Shown here: positions 3,530-63,594 of the stretch, piece by piece | Layout: each line of letters opens with the position of its first letter | How positions within the stretch are numbered: position 1 is the stretch's first letter | NCBI RefSeq assembly: GCF_017104565.1 | Contig: NZ_JAAGPD010000009.1 | Coordinates: 186,001-250,000 of the forward strand | Length of the DNA: 64,000 nucleotides | Reading direction: 5' to 3' | Origin: Paraburkholderia sp. Tr-20389 | GTDB lineage: Bacteria; Pseudomonadota; Gammaproteobacteria; Burkholderiales; Burkholderiaceae | Made by a program: the position numbers and the translations under genes | The notes under the pieces: model-generated | Seen by the model: the letters and a program-made list of their open reading frames with translations, nothing else | Told to the model about the DNA's origin: nothing | The model's database searches: none

Positions 3530-4523
3530 CGCCGCGCCGGCGGGGCGCGCGATGCGGCTTGCGCATCGTCTGCACGGGCTGGGGCCGCTCGCGGGCCTGA
3601 TCGTGCTGTGCATCGCGGGCACGCTGCTCAATCGCGACTTCGCCACTGTCGACAACATGATGAACGTGCTGACGCGCACGTCGTTCATCGGGATCATTGC
3701 TGTCGGCATGACGTTCGTGATTATTTCGGGTGGCATCGATTTGTCGGTTGGGTCGATGGCTGCGCTGATTGCGGGCAGCATGATCTGGTTGATGAATGCA
3801 CTCGCTGCGTCGCCTGGCGGGCATGCATTTGCGCCTTTGACGATCGTTTTGATCGGTATTGCCAGTGCCTTCGTGCTGGGCGGTGTGTTTGGTTGTGCGC
3901 ATGGTTTGCTGATTACAAAGGGGCGCATCGAGCCGTTCATCGTCACGCTCGGCACGTTGGGGATTTTTCGTGCTGTGCTGACATGGCTTGCCGACGGTGG
4001 TGCGTTGACGCTCGATAACAATCTCTCCGATCTCTATGGGCCTGTTTATTACGCGAGTCTGTTCGGCGTGCCGGTGCCTATATGGGTTTTTCTCGTCGTT
4101 GCGGCGGGCGGCGCGTTGATCTTGAATCGCACTGCGTTTGGGCGTCACGTGCAGGCGATCGGCTCGAATGAGCAGGTTGCAAGGTATGCCGCGATTCGCG
4201 TCGATACCGTGAAGATCGTAACTTATGTTTTGCTCGGGATTTGTGTTGGTGTGGCCACCGTGTTGTATGTGCCGAGGCTTGGGTCGGCGACACCTACTAC
4301 GGGCTTGCTTTGGGAGCTTGAAGCGATTGCCTCTGTTGTAGTCGGTGGCACCGCGCTTAAGGGCGGTGAAGGGCGGGTTGTCGGTACTGTTATCGGTGCG
4401 GTCTTGCTCTCGGTGATCGCTAATATTCTTAATCTCACTAGCATCATTAGTGTTTATTTGAATGCGGCTGTGCAGGGTGTTGTGATCATTGTTGTCGCTT
4501 TCTTGCAGCGGGGGCGCCGCTAG
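3510..4523 (+). CDS. Sugar ABC transporter permease (RbsC type)
   Basis: A 337-residue polytopic inner-membrane protein of the BPD_transp_2 family with eight or more hydrophobic segments and the conserved [15 protein letters not shown] stretch near residues 70-85 that marks CUT2 permeases. It forms the translocation channel with the preceding ATPase. The first 60 codons use the GC-rich codons normal for this genome, but from about 3700 onward the third positions become strikingly T-rich (GTT, CTT, GGT, ATT, TAT), peaking at the 3' end next to the repeat element. The binding-protein gene is separated from this one by about 780 bp of repeats, which is unusual for such an operon. Confidence 0.93.
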
Positions 4524-4532
4524 GCGCTTTTT

Positions 4533-4720
4533 GTCTGCGACGTAGTCGCGGTTCTGGCTTTTTTGGGGTTTTGGTTTTTGCTGGCATCCGCGCTGTGTTG
4601 TCTGTCGCTGGCATCCGCGTTTTGCCTTCGTGCTTCATGCGTTGCCCCTGTGCGGGGCGGCACCTACTTTTCTTTGCAGCGGCAAAGAAAAGTAGGCAAA
4701 AGAAAGCCGCTCACACCGCC
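4533..4720 (+). repeat. Dispersed hairpin repeat, copy 1 (core part)
   Basis: It starts 9 bp after the permease stop with GTCTGCGACGTAGTCGC (4533-4549, a small GCGAC/GTCGC hairpin) and a T-rich run. A GCCCC-TGTGC-GGGGC hairpin follows at 4644-4658, then a perfect 14-bp hairpin (CTACTTTTCTTTGC at 4664-4677, its complement at 4682-4695) and the conserved GCTCACACCGCC end. The roughly 230 bp that follow look like a degenerate version of the unit tail seen in copies 2, 4 and 5. The unit points away from the 3' end of the upstream gene. Confidence 0.9.
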
Positions 4721-4953
4721 AGTGCTTGTTATTACCCACGGGACCTCATCGTCCCCGTGGCGCATACGGCAACTTGCTCGCCTGGCTCAGTTGCTAATGC
4801 ATGAGCAATTGCCTCGCCCGCTTCATGTTCTCGTGCGGCGGCTGGCGGTGGCGGAAGTTCGACGCCGCTTTGCAGCGTGCAGGTTGTCATACCGTTGATG
4901 TCTGGGCACGGGATGTTTTTTGGCAAGAACGCAATGCTTCGCGGCGCGAAAGA
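4721..4953. other. Non-coding stretch between inverted repeat copies
   Basis: No credible gene is present. Fragments resemble the tail of the repeat unit in inverted orientation, for example CGGCAACTTGCTCGC, which is close to CGGCAACGTGCTCGC in copy 4, but the region is much more degenerate than the equivalent part of the pair at 30387-31112. Short open frames here translate the repeat and are not considered genes. Confidence 0.55.
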
Positions 4954-5240
4954 CTACACACAGTTTGCCACCTGGGCGGCGGCGGAAGTCTGGTAACGCG
5001 GGCTGTGACGCGGGAGTGTGAAGTGGGTGAGGCGAATCCAGGGGCGCTGGCAACGGGCGTGAAATAGCGTGTTGCCGTCTGGAGTGCGGGACCGGTTGGG
5101 GGCCCGCAGGCAGGAAGAAGAATGAGCGGTGTGAGCGGCTTTCTTTTGCCTACTTTTCTTTGCCGCTGCAAAGAAAAGTAGGTGCCGCCCCGCACAGGGG
5201 CAACGCATGAAGTACGAAGGCAGTTCGCGGATGCCAGCGA
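4954..5240 (-). repeat. Dispersed hairpin repeat, copy 2 (inverted relative to copy 1)
   Basis: This is a full unit in reverse orientation. The tail begins at GTTTGCCACCTGGGCGGC, continues through CTGGCAACGGGCG and GGTTGGGGGCCCGCAGG, and ends in the core at 5126-5240. The 14-bp hairpin arms lie at 5150-5163 and 5168-5181 with loop CGCT. It faces the sugar-binding-protein gene starting at 5306, and lacks the outer GTCTGCGACG end found on copies 1, 4 and 5. It is the only copy that abuts the 5' end of a gene. Confidence 0.9.
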
Positions 5241-5305
5241 AAGTGCAAAGCAGGCAAAAAACAGCAGTTCGGCAACCCATTGACGAAAAACAGGAGACAA
5301 GAACC

Positions 5306-6271
5306 ATGAACAAGATCATTCGTGCAGTTGGCGCCGGCATGCTGGCGCTAAGCGTCTCAACCATCGCAATTACAGCGGCACGCGCCGACGAAAAAGTAAC
5401 CCTCGGCGTCGCCATCCCCACCGCCGATCACGGCTTCACAGGCGGCATCGTGTGGTGGGCGAACAAGGCAAAAGCCGATCTGGAAAAAGCCCACCCCGAC
5501 CTGAAAGTCATCGTCAAGACAGCAGCCAACGCGCCGGAACAGGCGAACCAACTGCAAGACCTCGTGACCGTCAACAAGATCAATGCGCTCGTGATCTTCC
5601 CGTATGAATCGGCGTCCCTCACGCAACCCGTCGCGCAAGTGAAGAAGAAAGGCGTCTACGTGACGGTAGTCGACCGCGGCCTCACCGACACCAGCGCACA
5701 AGACGCGTACGTAGCCGGCGACAACACCGCGTTCGGCAAGATTCCCGCCGAATATCTCGCGAAAGCACTCGACGGCAAAGGTGACATCGTCGCGCTGCGC
5801 GGCATTCCGACCACGCTCGACAACGAACGCTGGACTGCCTTCACAGGCGTGCTAAAAAACTATCCAAACATCAAGATCCTCGACGCGAAATACGCGAACT
5901 GGAATCGCGACGACGCCTTCAAGGTGATGCAGGACTACCTGACGCGCTTCAAGCACATCGACGCCGTCTGGGCCGCCGACGACGATATGGCCGTCGGCGT
6001 CATGAAGGCGATCGATCAGGCCAAACGCAGCGACATCAAGATCGTGTTTGGCGGCGCGGGTTCGAAAGGCATGGTCAAGAACGTGATGGACGGTGCGCCG
6101 CTCATCAAGGCCGATGTGTCGTACTCGCCGAAATTCATCTACGACGCGATCAAGCTGACGGCCGAAGCACGCCTCAAAGGCGACAAGCTGCCGCCGACGA
6201 CGATCATTCCCTCCGTGCTGATCACGAAGGAAAACGCGAAGGACTTCTACTTCCCGGATTCGCCGTTCTGA
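5306..6271 (+). CDS. Sugar ABC transporter periplasmic substrate-binding protein (RbsB type)
   Basis: A 321-residue periplasmic-binding protein of the Peripla_BP_4 type that captures the sugar for the RbsA/RbsC-like components upstream. It has a signal peptide ([20 protein letters not shown], cleavage expected after the TAARA stretch) followed by the mature fold. The ATG at 5306 is preceded by AGGAGA at 5292-5297. The frame stays open back to 5207, but that extension only translates repeat DNA and is rejected. The first 80 or so codons use many A- and C-ending codons (GCA, ACA, CTA, TCA) compared with the rest of the gene. Because of the repeats upstream, it may have its own promoter or altered stoichiometry relative to the membrane components. 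Confidence 0.93.
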
Positions 6272-20116: not shown

Positions 20117-20322
20117 TTCGGGGATATGCGGCGGCAATGGCGGCGCGACAACTTGCACACGGTTTGCGGCAAGAGGTCCGGCGCGAGCGATGACACAATC
20201 CGCTGGAGCAGCGGGTCAAGCGGGTGGGGCGATGGTTAGAGCGCGGGCAACGGACAAAGACAAGCACGTTGCCGCATGAAGGGTGGGGACGTCGAGAGCC
20301 CTTGGGAAAACGTCAAGCACTG
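20117..20322. other. Intergenic stretch before repeat copy 3
   Basis: About 200 bp without a credible gene. The part from about 20239 (GCGGGCAACGG through CACGTTGCCG) resembles a degenerate repeat-unit tail, with ACGGTTTGC near 20160 perhaps a remnant of the GTTTGCCACC end. Confidence 0.45.
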
Positions 20323-20434
20323 GCGGTGTGAGCGGCTTTCTTTTGCCTACTTTTCTTTGCCGCTGCAAAGAAAAGTAGGTGCCGCCCCGCACAGGGGCAA
20401 CGCATGAAGTACGAAGGCATAGCGCGGATGCCAT
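20323..20434 (-). repeat. Dispersed hairpin repeat, copy 3 (solo)
   Basis: Core of the repeat in reverse orientation, with the 14-bp hairpin arms at 20347-20360 and 20365-20378 (loop CGCT), the GCCCC-type small hairpin, and the GCATGAAGTACGAAGGC end. It lies 34 bp from the 3' end of the minus-strand cbiX gene, so relative to that gene it is a downstream unit. No inverted partner is present, and the outer GTCTGCGACG motif is missing or degraded. Confidence 0.9.
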
Positions 20435-20467
20435 CGACAACACAACGCTGATGCCGGCGAAAAAAAC

Positions 20468-29480: not shown

Positions 29481-30383
29481 ATGCACATCCACCCGAATTT
29501 CGATCCCGTCGCCATCCATCTGGGGCCGCTCGCCGTCCGCTGGTACGGCCTGATGTATCTGGTCGCCTTTGTCATGGCGATCGTCGTGGGCCGGCTGCGG
29601 CTGCGTCTGCCGCACGTCGCCGCGCAAGGCTGGACGCCGAAGGACATCGACGACATGCTGTTTTACGGCGTGCTCGGCACGATCCTCGGCGGGCGCCTGG
29701 GCTACGTGCTGTTCTACAAGGCGAGTTGGTACTTCGCGCATCCTCTCGATGTCTTCAAGGTCTGGGAAGGCGGCATGTCGTTTCACGGCGGCTTTCTCGG
29801 CGTGACGCTCGCGATGATTCTGTTTGCATGGCAGCGCAAGCGCACGTGGCTGCAGGTGACGGACTTCGTCGCACCGATGGTGCCGACGGGTCTTGCGGCG
29901 GGGCGCCTCGGCAACTTCATCAATGGCGAGTTGTGGGGGCGTGTGACTTCGCCCGATGCGCCGTGGGCGATGCTGTTCCCGGGCGCCGCGAACGAAGACG
30001 CGGGCTGGCTTGCTGCGCATCCGGCGCAGGCTGCGCAATGGCATCTCGCCGATGTATTCGCGCAATATCACATGTTGCCGCGACATCCGTCGCAGTTGTA
30101 TGAGATCGCACTCGAAGGTGTCGTGCTGTTTCTTGTGCTGTGGTTCTTTTCGCGGAAGCCGCGGCCTGTAGGTGCTGCATCGGCCGTGTTTCTGATTGGG
30201 TATGGGCTTGCGCGGTTTACCGTCGAGTTCGCTCGGGAGCCGGATGATTTTCTTGGGTTGCTGGCGCTTGGGTTGTCGATGGGGCAATGGCTTTCGCTGC
30301 CGATGATCATCGGCGGTGTCGTTATGTTGTTGTGGGCGTATCGGAGGAATGGGCGCTCGGCCGCGCAGGTTGCCGGTGTTTAG
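29481..30383 (+). CDS. lgt: Prolipoprotein diacylglyceryl transferase
   Basis: A 300-residue integral inner-membrane enzyme that transfers diacylglycerol to the lipobox cysteine of prolipoproteins. The signature [14 protein letters not shown] is near residues 137-150, and the N-terminal [26 protein letters not shown] is typical. Several transmembrane helices are visible. The last 80 or so codons shift to T- and G-ending third positions (TTT, CTT, GGG, TAT) compared with the C/G-ending 5' half, next to the repeat element that starts 4 bp after the stop. Confidence 0.95.
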
Positions 30384-30386
30384 TTT

Positions 30387-30709
30387 GTCTGCGACGCTAG
30401 TCGCTCTGTTTAGGTTTTTTTTGAGGCTGGCGTCCGCGTGATGCCTCTGGTTCGCTAGTGTTGCCCCTGTGCGGGGCGGCACTTACTTTCTTTGCCGCCG
30501 CAAAGAAAGTAAGCAAAGAAAGCGGGCTCACACCGCCAATCCTTGTTGTTGCCTGCGGGCCCCCAACTGTTCTTACGCTTCACGCGGCAACGTGCTCGCT
30601 TGCGCCCGTTGCCAGCGTGCTAACTGGACGCATCACGCGCTTCACATTCCCGCGTCACGGCCTGCCTTACCAAGCGTTCACCGCCGCCCAGGTGGCAAAC
30701 TGTGTGTAG
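30387..30709 (+). repeat. Dispersed hairpin repeat, copy 4 (full unit)
   Basis: A full 323-bp unit beginning 4 bp after the lgt stop with GTCTGCGACGCTAGTCGC and a T-run, then the GCCCC/GGGGC hairpin and a 14-bp perfect hairpin whose arms differ in sequence from the other copies (CTTACTTTCTTTGC at 30482-30495, complement at 30500-30513). The tail includes GCGGGCCCCCAACTG, GCCCGTTGCCAGCG and ends at GGTGGCAAACTGTGTGTAG. Confidence 0.9.
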
Positions 30710-30791
30710 GCTGTCGCACCGTATGCGTTCGCGTTCCTACGACACCGATCCCGTTTTTTCGTCCGGAGTGGTGCATCTACGTCGCGATGGC
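30710..30791. other. Spacer at the centre of the inverted repeat pair
   Basis: 82 bp between the two inverted units. No gene or clear motif was seen; it contains a T-run (GATCCCGTTTTTTCG). Confidence 0.6.
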
Positions 30792-31112
30792 CTACACATA
30801 GTTTGCCACCTGGGCGGCGCAGATGAATCGCTGCCGCTGGCTGCACTGTGGGTGATTGGAGAGGGTGATGCGCCTGTTCAAGGCGCTGGCAACGGGCGCA
30901 AAACGATGGGTTGCCGTGTGGAGTGCGGGACCGGTTGGGGGCCCGCAGGCAAGTACAAAAGCTGGCGGTGTGAGCGGCTTTCTTTTGCCTACTTTTCTTT
31001 GCCGCTGCAAAGAAAAGTAGGTGCCGCCCCGCACAGGGGCAACGCATGAAGTACGAAGGCACAACGCGGATGCCAGCAAAAAAACCCCAAAACGGCGACT
31101 AGCGTCGCAGAC
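30792..31112 (-). repeat. Dispersed hairpin repeat, copy 5 (full unit, inverted)
   Basis: A 321-bp unit in inverse orientation to copy 4, starting CTACACATAGTTTGCCACC and ending with the complement of GTCTGCGACGCTAGTCGC at 31095-31112. The 14-bp hairpin arms are at 30989-31002 and 31007-31020. It ends 9 bp from the stop of the minus-strand SIMPL gene, so it is a 3' unit for that gene. With copy 4 it forms a 726-bp imperfect palindrome. Confidence 0.9.
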
Positions 31113-31121
31113 ATAAAAACA

Positions 31122-31844
31122 TCACTTCATCTGCACGGACCCAGACACGTTAACGGTCACAGTCGAAGTCCCACCCTCGACAGGCACAGGAGCAGCGGCC
31201 TTAGCGCTCACATCCGACCGCATGCTCATCATCATCACGGGCCGCGGCGGTACGCCGCCGCTATGCCCGACGCTCACTTCGCGGATCGTATAGCCGCTGT
31301 AGCCAAACGCCTGCGCCGACGCCGTCGCCTGCTGTTTGAAGGAAGCGATTGCCTGACCCGTCAGCTTCTGCTCGGCAGCACGCTGCGCCTCCGGCGACAA
31401 AGAGAACTGCACATTGCCAACCTGCATGATCGAAGCAATCTGTCCCGCGAGCTTCGACGCCGCCGCGAAGTCGTGCGACTCCAGCACGATCTCCGTGCGG
31501 CCGCGCCACGCGGAAATGCGTCCATCGCGATCCGTCGACGGATAGATCGAGAACGACCCCGTGCGCGCCGTCACGCCGCTCACGCCCTTGGCCTTTTGCA
31601 ACGCCTGGTCGGCATGCTGGTTCAGCGTGCCCGTCAACGACGACGGATCGCTCGCTTCCTGTTCGTAGAACAGCGTGATGTCGACGACGTCCTGCGGCAC
31701 TTCGGCGCTAGCCTGCGCGTTCAGCGACAGCACACCGGCCGGCTGATACTGCTGCACAACGGTTTGCGCATTGGCCGCAGCGGCCGTGAGCGCGAGTGCG
31801 AGCGGCGCCGCGAGCGTCCACACGAGCGCGGATTTTTTCGTCAT
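31122..31844 (-). CDS. SIMPL (DUF541) domain protein, periplasmic
   Basis: A 240-residue exported protein with a signal peptide (SALVWTLAAPLALALTAAAA, cleaved after NAQ) and a SIMPL/YggE-type DUF541 domain (VLSLNAQASAEVPQDVVDIT through VSVSGSVQ-like NVSGSVQMK). E. coli YggE is linked to oxidative-stress protection; the molecular role of the family is unclear. The ATG at 31844 is preferred over longer openings to 31928. The 3' end, adjacent to repeat copy 5, shows T-ending codons (GCT, CCT, ACT, GTT) unlike the 5' half. Confidence 0.87.
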   Translation of the reverse strand: MTKKSALVWTLAAPLALALTAAAANAQTVVQQYQPAGVLSLNAQASAEVPQDVVDITLFYEQEASDPSSLTGTLNQHADQALQKAKGVSGVTARTGSFSIYPSTDRDGRISAWRGRTEIVLESHDFAAASKLAGQIASIMQVGNVQFSLSPEAQRAAEQKLTGQAIASFKQQATASAQAFGYSGYTIREVSVGHSGGVPPRPVMMMSMRSDVSAKAAAPVPVEGGTSTVTVNVSGSVQMK

Positions 31845-32647: not shown

Positions 32648-32838
32648 TATAGGTCCCCGCCTTAGCCGCTAGGTCGGCATCCTGAACCTGAGGTTCAGAA
32701 TTGGTCGCAGTTAGCAGCACTTCGGGTACATCAGACTGAGTGACGCGCACGCCCGTGCTACAAATTTCCGCAACCGTGCATATAGCATTGGTTCAAGGAA
32801 TATATGACCTTGGCGAACCAGGCAGGGAAGCTGAAAAA
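32648..32838 (-). ncRNA. ssrS: 6S RNA
   Basis: A minus-strand RNA of about 190 nt between zapA and the EVE gene, the usual ssrS location. The closing stem is visible: the 5' arm (minus TCCCTGCCTGGTTCGCC, + strand 32806-32828) pairs with the 3' arm (GGCTAAGGCGGGGA, + strand 32654-32675). The 3' half contains CTGAACCTCAGGTTCAG, comparable to the CTTGAACC/GGTTCAAG hairpin of E. coli 6S RNA. 6S RNA mimics an open promoter and binds sigma-70 RNA polymerase in stationary phase. The exact 5' end is estimated. A poor -35/-10 pair (TTGGTT, 17 bp, TGTAGA on the minus strand) lies just upstream. Confidence 0.82.
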
Positions 32839-33739: not shown

Positions 33740-33807
33740 ACAGACGTCCGTCGGGATGCGGATGATGAATCCCGTTTCTTGACGCGTCTACTCGCCACTT
33801 CTACACT

Positions 33808-34040
33808 TGCGGCACTTTGGTGCCCGCACGCGGTATCGCACCGCGCGCAGTTAAACGGGAAGCAGGGAGCGAAGTCCGCCCGGACGAGCCAACCTGCGCT
33901 GTCCTCGCAACGGTACAACGATGCAAGTCGATCCATGCACGTGTCGAGCCGCCCATCGGCCGATACCGTGCGACACACGCCACTGCGCATGATGCGCGGG
34001 AAGGCGGATCGGCCAGTCGTCAGCCCGGATACCGGCCAGA
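33808..34040 (+). ncRNA. Cobalamin (AdoCbl) riboswitch upstream of btuB
   Basis: The conserved parts of a B12 riboswitch are present in order: a 5' stem (GGCACTTTGGTGCCCG), TTAAACGGGAAGCAGG at 33851, CTGTCCTCGCAACGGTA at 33899 (core CCxCGCAAC), GCCACTGCGCATGATGCGCG with GGGAAGGC near 33979-34005, and the B12-box-like GTCAGCCCGGATACCGGCC ending at 34037. An 8-bp hairpin (CGGGAAGC at 34043-34050, GCTTCCCG at 34056-34063) and a GGGCC/GGCCC hairpin next to the ribosome-binding site (34088-34104) follow. No T-run is seen, so translational control is inferred. It should repress the btu operon when cobalamin is plentiful. Confidence 0.93.
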
Positions 34041-34118
34041 GCCGGGAAGCATGGCGCTTCCCGAACAGGCATCGGCCCACGAGGAGCGGGCCGCGCACAG
34101 GCCCACAGGATTCTTTCG

Positions 34119-63325: not shown

Positions 63326-63353
63326 CAAAAAAAACCGGGGCTATGGGCCCCGG
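63326..63353 (-). terminator. Intrinsic terminator downstream of the OmpA-family gene
   Basis: A 7-bp stem (CCGGGGC at 63335-63341, GCCCCGG at 63347-63353) is followed on the minus strand by TTTTTTTT. It lies about 240 bp past the OmpA-family stop codon, leaving a long 3' untranslated region or a separate small transcript in between. Confidence 0.8.
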
Positions 63354-63594
63354 AGCAACAACGACAAGAGGAGAATGGTGACGCGGCGGCATCGCCGCAC
63401 ACGTACCGTAAAGACAGACCATGGATTTTCACAAGAGTTCGAAAATTTTTTCGATTGCTTGTGAGACTTGCCGCACGGTGGATCGCGAGGCAGTCGGGGG
63501 CTTCCGGCTGAGCCGCCGTCTCGCGATCATGTCTGTCGAACGGTCTTCGCAGGCTTGCCGCGAAGACCCGTCCATCTCCCAAACGTTACTGCGG
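63354..63594. other. Long 3' region between OmpA-family stop and terminator
   Basis: 241 bp with no credible gene. On the minus strand it contains a C/U-rich stretch (CCATTCTCCTCTTGTCG) just before the terminator, a pattern seen in some 3'-UTR-derived small RNAs. A short AT palindrome-like stretch (CGAAAATTTTTTCG) lies at 63439-63452. Confidence 0.45.

Follow-up and report, generated by a model that had tools for sequence, protein, structure and literature searches.

A mirror-image base-composition footprint beside a dispersed inverted repeat of Paraburkholderia, possibly left by recurrent breakage and resection

Two copies of a palindromic repeat element lie in the window (the whole 64,000-nucleotide stretch of Paraburkholderia sp. 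Tr-20389 DNA that was analyzed), and the genes beside them change their codon usage as they approach the repeat. This raises the question of what such an element could do to the base composition of its neighbors. A reading made from the sequence alone had described a permease gene drifting to T-ending codons on the left of the first copy and a binding-protein gene that starts A-rich and then reverts on the right, with a matching pattern in lgt and a SIMPL gene at the second copy. We measured codon use in the window in blocks of 60 codons and recovered each of these shifts. Third-position T in the permease gene was 0.10 in the first block and 0.28-0.35 in those that follow, reaching 0.46 in the last (from 4410); third-position C fell from 0.38 to 0.22-0.28 toward the element. 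Third-position A in the binding-protein gene was 0.22, 0.18, and 0.17 in successive blocks and then 0.08. At the 3' end of lgt, third-position C fell from 0.47 to 0.15-0.17 as T rose from 0.10 to 0.28, and the SIMPL gene near the element had coding G of about 0.52 against C of 0.28 (its last 28 codons lie outside these figures), making it C-rich on the plus strand. The AT skew changed from about -0.38 (3751-4750) to +0.36 (5251-5750) and the GC skew from +0.19 (3751-4250) to -0.11. Taken gene by gene, the significance was only moderate (permease third-position T, P = 0.03; binding-protein third-position A, P = 0.015). The sequence-only reading had also regarded the excess of C on the right as unexplained by C-to-T change, which was an oversight: C-to-T change on the minus strand depletes the plus strand of G and so produces a negative GC skew by itself.

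Positions in the window of the repeat element, its parts, and the flanking footprints
Feature	Positions	Strand	Details
Left footprint, copy 1	3690..4601	+	Plus strand T-rich, C-poor; spans the permease gene (BPD_transp_2) minus its first 60 codons
Full element, copy 1	4602..5243	.	Inverted arms 4602-4748 and 5097-5243, 348-bp middle
34-bp core palindrome, left arm of copy 1	4663..4696	.	CCTAC...GTAGG ends
34-bp core palindrome, right arm of copy 1	5149..5182	.
Right footprint, copy 1	5244..5845	-	Plus strand A-/C-rich (minus strand G/T-rich); spans codons 1-180 of the binding-protein gene (Peripla_BP_4)
Solitary right arm	20314..20439	.	G+T toward arm 0.529 (left), 0.578 (right)
Left footprint, copy 2	29841..30425	+	3' part of lgt
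Full element, copy 2	30426..31081	.
Right footprint, copy 2	31082..31750	-	3' part of the SIMPL gene (minus strand)

The element consists of two inverted arms of ~147 bp around a middle of ~350 bp, with a 34-bp core palindrome in each arm; the arms of the first copy are 88% complementary to each other. We located the core, CCTACTTTTCTTTGC...GCAAAGAAAAGTAGG, five times in the window, once in a form diverged to 71%; the solitary arm had no partner within 800 bp. Rfam matches in the window were to 6S RNA (32650-32831), a cobalamin riboswitch (33801-34054), and the Burkholderia sRNA ncS16 (63326-63406). We took 40 stretches of the 9.0-Mb source genome, choosing 37 for the close match of their arms to that in the window, and they contained 48 full copies; these copies are therefore not a random sample. 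They are dispersed and mostly intergenic (by the crude calls of a simple gene caller of our own), and their short palindromes carry GTAG/CTAC flanks, two properties of the GTAG class of REPs and REPINs; a third, a linked RAYT (HUH Y1 transposase), was not found in the source genome. Weak conservation reaches beyond the arms, so the innermost 100-150 bp of the flanks may include element DNA. Beside one full element (L020:9191-9470; contig C128:140190-140469), four additional partial units of the left arm recur every 72 bp.

Across the family, an 86-bp core was present in 56 of the 150 genomes searched, the element's own genus included, and in 7 of 25 genera. Likeness was 0.83 for arms at orthologous positions, 0.85 for other copies from different genomes, and 0.86 for other copies of the same genome, with 0.93 among copies within genome G042 and within G053. 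That arms are no more alike at orthologous positions modestly suggests that gene conversion, a form of recombination, may act at the elements.

To follow the composition across copies, we counted bases on the strand that runs 5' to 3' toward the element (the right flank being reverse-complemented) from 100 to 1000 bp out, ending each side halfway to any neighboring arm; 92 of the 96 sides were long enough for this. G+T exceeded 0.5 on 90 of the 92 measurable sides of the 48 full copies, compared with 46.6% of sides at 2000 random places lying over 3 kb from the nearest arm (sign test, P about 2e-27), and both sides exceeded 0.5 in 42 of 44 copies, compared with 18.7% of the random places. The skew flip that had been predicted for the average over copies was present, from -0.43 to +0.40 for AT and from +0.18 to -0.22 for GC within 250 bp of the element (45 left and 47 right flanks), and the mean skew faded over about 1-1.5 kb. 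The skew observation is therefore genuine and stronger than could be seen from the window. Three solitary arms in the source genome had weaker values, 0.52-0.58 on both sides. Two other unpaired arms (L012 and L016) each had one side at 0.485; another arm lies ~460 bp away on the low side of the former, and only a weak inverted match on that of the latter.

The pattern tracks the DNA strand and not the coding strand, as had been claimed, since it takes mirror-image forms in genes of the two orientations relative to the element. In genes pointing toward the element, T at two-fold pyrimidine (NNY) sites climbed from a fraction of 0.27 to 0.66 while A at two-fold purine (NNR) sites dropped from 0.35 to 0.16; in genes pointing away, on the coding strand, the NNR A fraction went from 0.36 to 0.67 and the NNY T fraction from 0.31 to 0.15, both toward the element. 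First and second codon positions also shifted, more weakly. A mirror-image bias independent of the coding strand is what a break-associated mutational footprint should show. Mutation coupled to transcripts converging on the element could be imagined as a source, for 58 of 84 adjacent genes read toward it by our crude gene calls. Genes reading away nevertheless bear the same DNA-strand pattern, and at 121 gene 3' ends with no arm within 3 kb, where the same codon shift would have spoken against a role of the repeat, there was none; we consider transcription a very improbable cause. The fitted decay length was 357 bp (about 360 bp), with fits at 300 and 400 bp worse by 2.4 and 0.9 log-likelihood units. 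A strong base-context preference was rejected, the shift appearing in every context tested and being larger before G and after T.

A static pattern of this kind would look the same within one genome if the element simply inserted at pre-existing switches from G/T-rich to A/C-rich sequence. We therefore compared orthologs of glgB, ppk1, recJ, and astE with and without the element, using the last 200 codons in the best 30 of 59 genus genomes for each gene. Mean third-position C/T was 0.24/0.25 with the element (8 genomes) and 0.47/0.10 without (22) for glgB, 0.27/0.21 (5) and 0.38/0.11 (25) for ppk1, 0.30/0.15 (8) and 0.48/0.07 (22) for recJ, and 0.24/0.28 (3) and 0.37/0.14 (27) for astE. The C ranges were disjoint for glgB (0.16-0.30 with, 0.42-0.53 without) and recJ (0.27-0.36 with, 0.44-0.53 without), so that none of the 22 element-free orthologs of either gene reached the element-bearing range. 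Beyond the glgB element lies glgX, which reads away from it; mean coding A in glgX was 0.21 with the element and 0.07 without, and third-position A at the gene start was at most 0.12 in the 22 genomes without and 0.12-0.25 in the 8 with.

The ranges overlapped for ppk1 and astE, and the mild shift of several element-free ppk1 orthologs (e.g., G038, C 0.32 and T 0.17) and of some element-free astE orthologs, which reach T 0.21 (G042, G022), is in keeping with insertion at pre-existing switches. One genome, G021, is hard to place in both sets: its ppk1, counted as "with", rests on an incomplete match where a contig ends and is only mildly shifted (C 0.33, T 0.13), and its astE (T 0.25), counted as "without", has only 199 bp of flank, so its class is uncertain. 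Within a close clade, third-position T in ppk1 was 0.18-0.26 where the element is present (the source genome, G020, G001, and G043) and 0.06-0.14 where there is no ppk1 element within 1.5 kb (G042, G053, and G005), and we found no convincing element remnants at ppk1 in the latter three. In a tree built from sections of glgB, ppk1, and recJ distant from elements, the eight carriers of the glgB and recJ elements fall on one side and ten others on the opposite side, so the two genes together amount to one evolutionary contrast; the contrasts for ppk1 and astE lie inside the clade. The shift thus goes with the element in related genomes, with the overlap noted for ppk1 and astE, and on this ortholog comparison, together with the raised divergence described below, we rejected target-site preference, to which we give next to no chance. 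At one locus (L060:3900-4150), where four relatives have the element and it was not found in two, 250 intergenic bases are shifted and the gene is not, suggesting from this single locus that the footprint grows with age. The intergenic DNA to the right of that element is extremely A/C-rich, as if filled before the gene.

We then polarized changes at sites conserved in outgroups, counting cells of genome by site, such that an inherited change is counted several times. C-to-T change was 0.42 near the element and 0.10 far from it, A-to-G change was 0.64 near and 0.28 far, and the reverse changes (T-to-C and G-to-A) were rarer near the element than far; other cut-offs gave the same picture. At fourfold sites, C-to-G rose from 0.12 far to 0.30 near and C-to-T from 0.06 to 0.155, alike at about 2.6-fold, and G-to-T rose from 0.03 to 0.07. 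Since C-to-G is up as much as C-to-T, simple deamination is not the whole spectrum. In close relatives without the element, near A-to-G at two-fold purine sites was 0.64 (25 cells), compared with 0.635 with it, and near C-to-T was 0.18, intermediate relative to 0.42; past loss of the element could account for both values, although ppk1 yielded no remnant of one.

Fourfold divergence was also raised beside the element, a further mark of a break-associated mutational footprint. The mean ratio of near to far divergence, for pairs both with the element, was 1.56 in glgB (28 pairs), 1.75 in ppk1 (10), 1.23 in recJ (28), and 2.31 in astE (3, its far part being very short), compared with 0.88 (227), 1.31 (300), 1.12 (231), and 1.38 (301) for pairs both without it; only pairs with far divergence below 0.45 were kept. 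Selection for G/T-rich strands at fragile sites, through Chi-like words or RecA loading, should leave divergence lower near elements, the opposite of what we observed. Chi is indeed G/T-rich and polar, according to the accessible text of PMC6061781, and near elements GCTGGTGG appears five times on the toward strand, against a single time on the opposite one. No octamer stood out beyond composition, the best z near elements being 2.3, and we rejected selection of this sort as highly unlikely. The raised divergence and the transversions would fit error-prone synthesis, and a polymerase origin, in which repair forks started on both flanks converge on the element, so that the plus strand on the left and the minus strand on the right would be made again and again as leading strands and gain their usual G/T excess, predicts the same sign; such convergent synthesis in the repair of palindrome breaks in E. 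coli is described in PMC4752480. The local excess is, however, larger than the chromosome-wide skew (far G+T was 0.523 and 0.496 on the two sides), so very many rounds of synthesis would be required, and we regard a purely polymerase-driven origin as rather unlikely.

The footprint is shared by other genomes carrying the repeat. G+T exceeded 0.5 on 19 of 24 sides in G042, 19 of 20 in G053, and 36 of 38 in G018, G002, and G015, whose copies have shorter arms; some single copies in G042 and G020 showed no excess. Among the matches listed by a pattern scan of named genomes were 80 of 113 stretches, spread over about 40 strains of Paraburkholderia, Caballeronia, and "Burkholderia sp."; of the 86 outer flanks in these 80, GC skew was negative in 80, AT skew was positive in 64, and A+C was above 0.5 in 73. 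Twenty loci from three further genera of the family gave 47 measurable sides, every one of them above 0.5; ten of these loci are one locus in ten genomes, and the remaining ten fall in eight groups. At the ten-genome locus, the arms lie 2-3 kb apart in three genomes, each arm there being its own center with inner sides of 0.50-0.55. In those three, the arms enclose cargo genes (L368:4042-5290, L376:5410-6646), which in L368 match PAAR and the type VI amidase Tae4 and in L376 encode proteins similar by eye; in the other seven, the arm pair spans about 0.65-0.75 kb.

That the footprint might be a property of palindromes generally was not borne out in two small controls. Ten other intergenic hairpins from the same stretches of the source genome had 9 of 20 sides above 0.5, and ten REP clusters from 250 kb of E. 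coli K-12 had 11 of 20, with a GC skew of +0.07 and an AT skew of +0.06 at 100-250 bp. Nor did the strength of the footprint follow arm complementarity (rho 0.21, P 0.19, 41 copies), and we rejected such a dependence for want of a correlation.

We consider breakage followed by resection to be the best overall explanation of the footprint, with a probability of roughly 0.5. Each repeat unit would be a site of recurrent chromosome opening, most simply by a two-ended break where the palindrome folds or close to it. Resection from 5' to 3' would then leave the strand with its 3' end at the element single-stranded on each side for a few hundred bases, where deamination of cytosine and adenine could produce C-to-T and A-to-G changes and lesion bypass could produce C-to-G and C-to-A, all to be fixed in repair synthesis. 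Over a long residence of the element, synonymous sites and intergenic DNA would drift to G+T with a decay of ~360 bp. The footprint itself, its strand rule, its tie to the element, the direction in which bases changed, and the raised divergence are observed; the single-strandedness, the break, the resection, and deamination as the chemistry are what we infer from the pattern, and the C-to-G change and raised overall divergence suggest that lesion bypass or error-prone repair synthesis takes part as well. The sequence-only reading had named C-to-T change on single-stranded 3' tails; its sign, symmetry, and dependence on the element held up, but C-to-T alone did not, given A-to-G and C-to-G.

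The relation to replication bears on what kind of event may open the DNA. With fork direction taken from the position of dnaA and the terminus assumed opposite, the excess in 20 copies was 0.039 +- 0.013 on the side met first and 0.048 +- 0.011 on the side met last. A roughly equal excess on both sides is as a two-ended event predicts, and 3'-ending single strands on both sides whatever the fork direction are what resection from a two-ended break gives. Left and right strengths of the same copy were uncorrelated (rho 0.05, 41 copies), which is unexpected under one break rate per locus, although gene context adds noise. Resection by RecBCD in E. coli normally covers kilobases, longer than 360 bp, and this counts against breakage and resection as the explanation.

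The shortness of the decay would be easier to understand if single strands arose without breakage, by nicking, or where a helicase or exonuclease opens a cruciform or stalled hairpin. Such opening is also favored by the footprints of solitary arms and of copies with short arms, and by our failure to identify a cutter in the source genome, where SbcD is below the family cut-off with weaker partial matches only and SbcCD cleavage was not supported. RecB is present there. Gaps at hairpins stalled on the lagging strand would, on the other hand, be one-sided relative to the fork, in contrast to the symmetric excess. Among nickases, those of the Y1 type need the HUH histidines and a Tyr motif. The source genome has a single Y1_Tnp match (L224:9682-10389; contig C12), the protein appears to be without either motif, and no repeat arm was found in its 19.9-kb locus. 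Nicking by a RAYT was thus unsupported, and we think opening without breakage unlikely as a whole. The Y1_Tnp protein of the source genome may, from its sequence, be domesticated; a Y1_Tnp match was present in all 59 genus genomes searched, arm-free genomes included. SbcD was above the cut-off in 6 of the 59, among them arm-rich G043 and arm-free G039. The sign of the footprint fits the breakage and resection at palindromes that the sequence-only reading proposed, and we regard that reading as partly supported. A broader proposal, that the repeats are natural, long-lived fragile sites, tens or more per genome, where a nuclease or nickase repeatedly opens the chromosome, the mirrored scar alters the codons of adjacent genes, and gene conversion keeps the copies alike, we put forward tentatively, at somewhat less than even odds.

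If true, breakage and resection at these repeats would leave an evolutionary trace from which sites of breakage or opening in bacterial chromosomes could be read, some gene ends would lie in mutation hot zones set by the adjoining repeat, and the element could be used as a natural reporter of breaks and of resection length. The footprint could also confound scans of codon usage, gene transfer, and selection in Burkholderiaceae. We found no account of such a footprint in the open literature, as judged from titles and the starts of abstracts, with subscription journals mostly outside this coverage, which is a weak indication of novelty.

Several known systems resemble parts of what we describe. 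In mammals, meiotic break hotspots carry opposite strand biases on the two sides of recurrent breaks; unlike the repeats here, these hotspots are eukaryotic, meiotic, and programmed by other machinery. In the E. coli system of Shee 2012, mutation is reportedly raised beside breaks. Those breaks were laboratory-made and did not belong to a repeat family, and we know of no strand-mirrored composition footprint for that system.

In another E. coli system, a long palindrome is broken by SbcCD and repaired by RecBCD, according to the accessible text of PMC6061781. The parts of PMC6061781 and PMC4752480 available share with our case palindromic DNA, a two-ended break (inferred here), and RecB, but they concern an artificial 246-bp palindrome whereas the repeats here are natural, they contain in those parts no evolutionary footprint in base composition, and the SbcCD that cuts palindromes in E. 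coli contrasts with an SbcD below the cut-off in our source genome. GTAG-tagged REPs and REPINs, as presented in the available portions of PMC3733652 and PMC3116915, are likewise short palindromes marked by GTAG, arranged in inverted pairs and in many intergenic copies. The element described here differs from those of PMC3733652, in whose main text the words Burkholderia and skew are absent, in being a 655-bp composite with a footprint and with no intact RAYT. A parallel to the spectrum is the strand bias of mitochondrial genomes, for which deamination of C and A in single strands is a proposed source in the accessible part of PMC3269012: there, as in replication strand asymmetry, C-to-T and A-to-G changes fall on one strand and are graded in space. 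Those asymmetries extend over a whole genome or chromosome, whereas the footprint here is local, mirrored, and repeated at many dispersed repeats.
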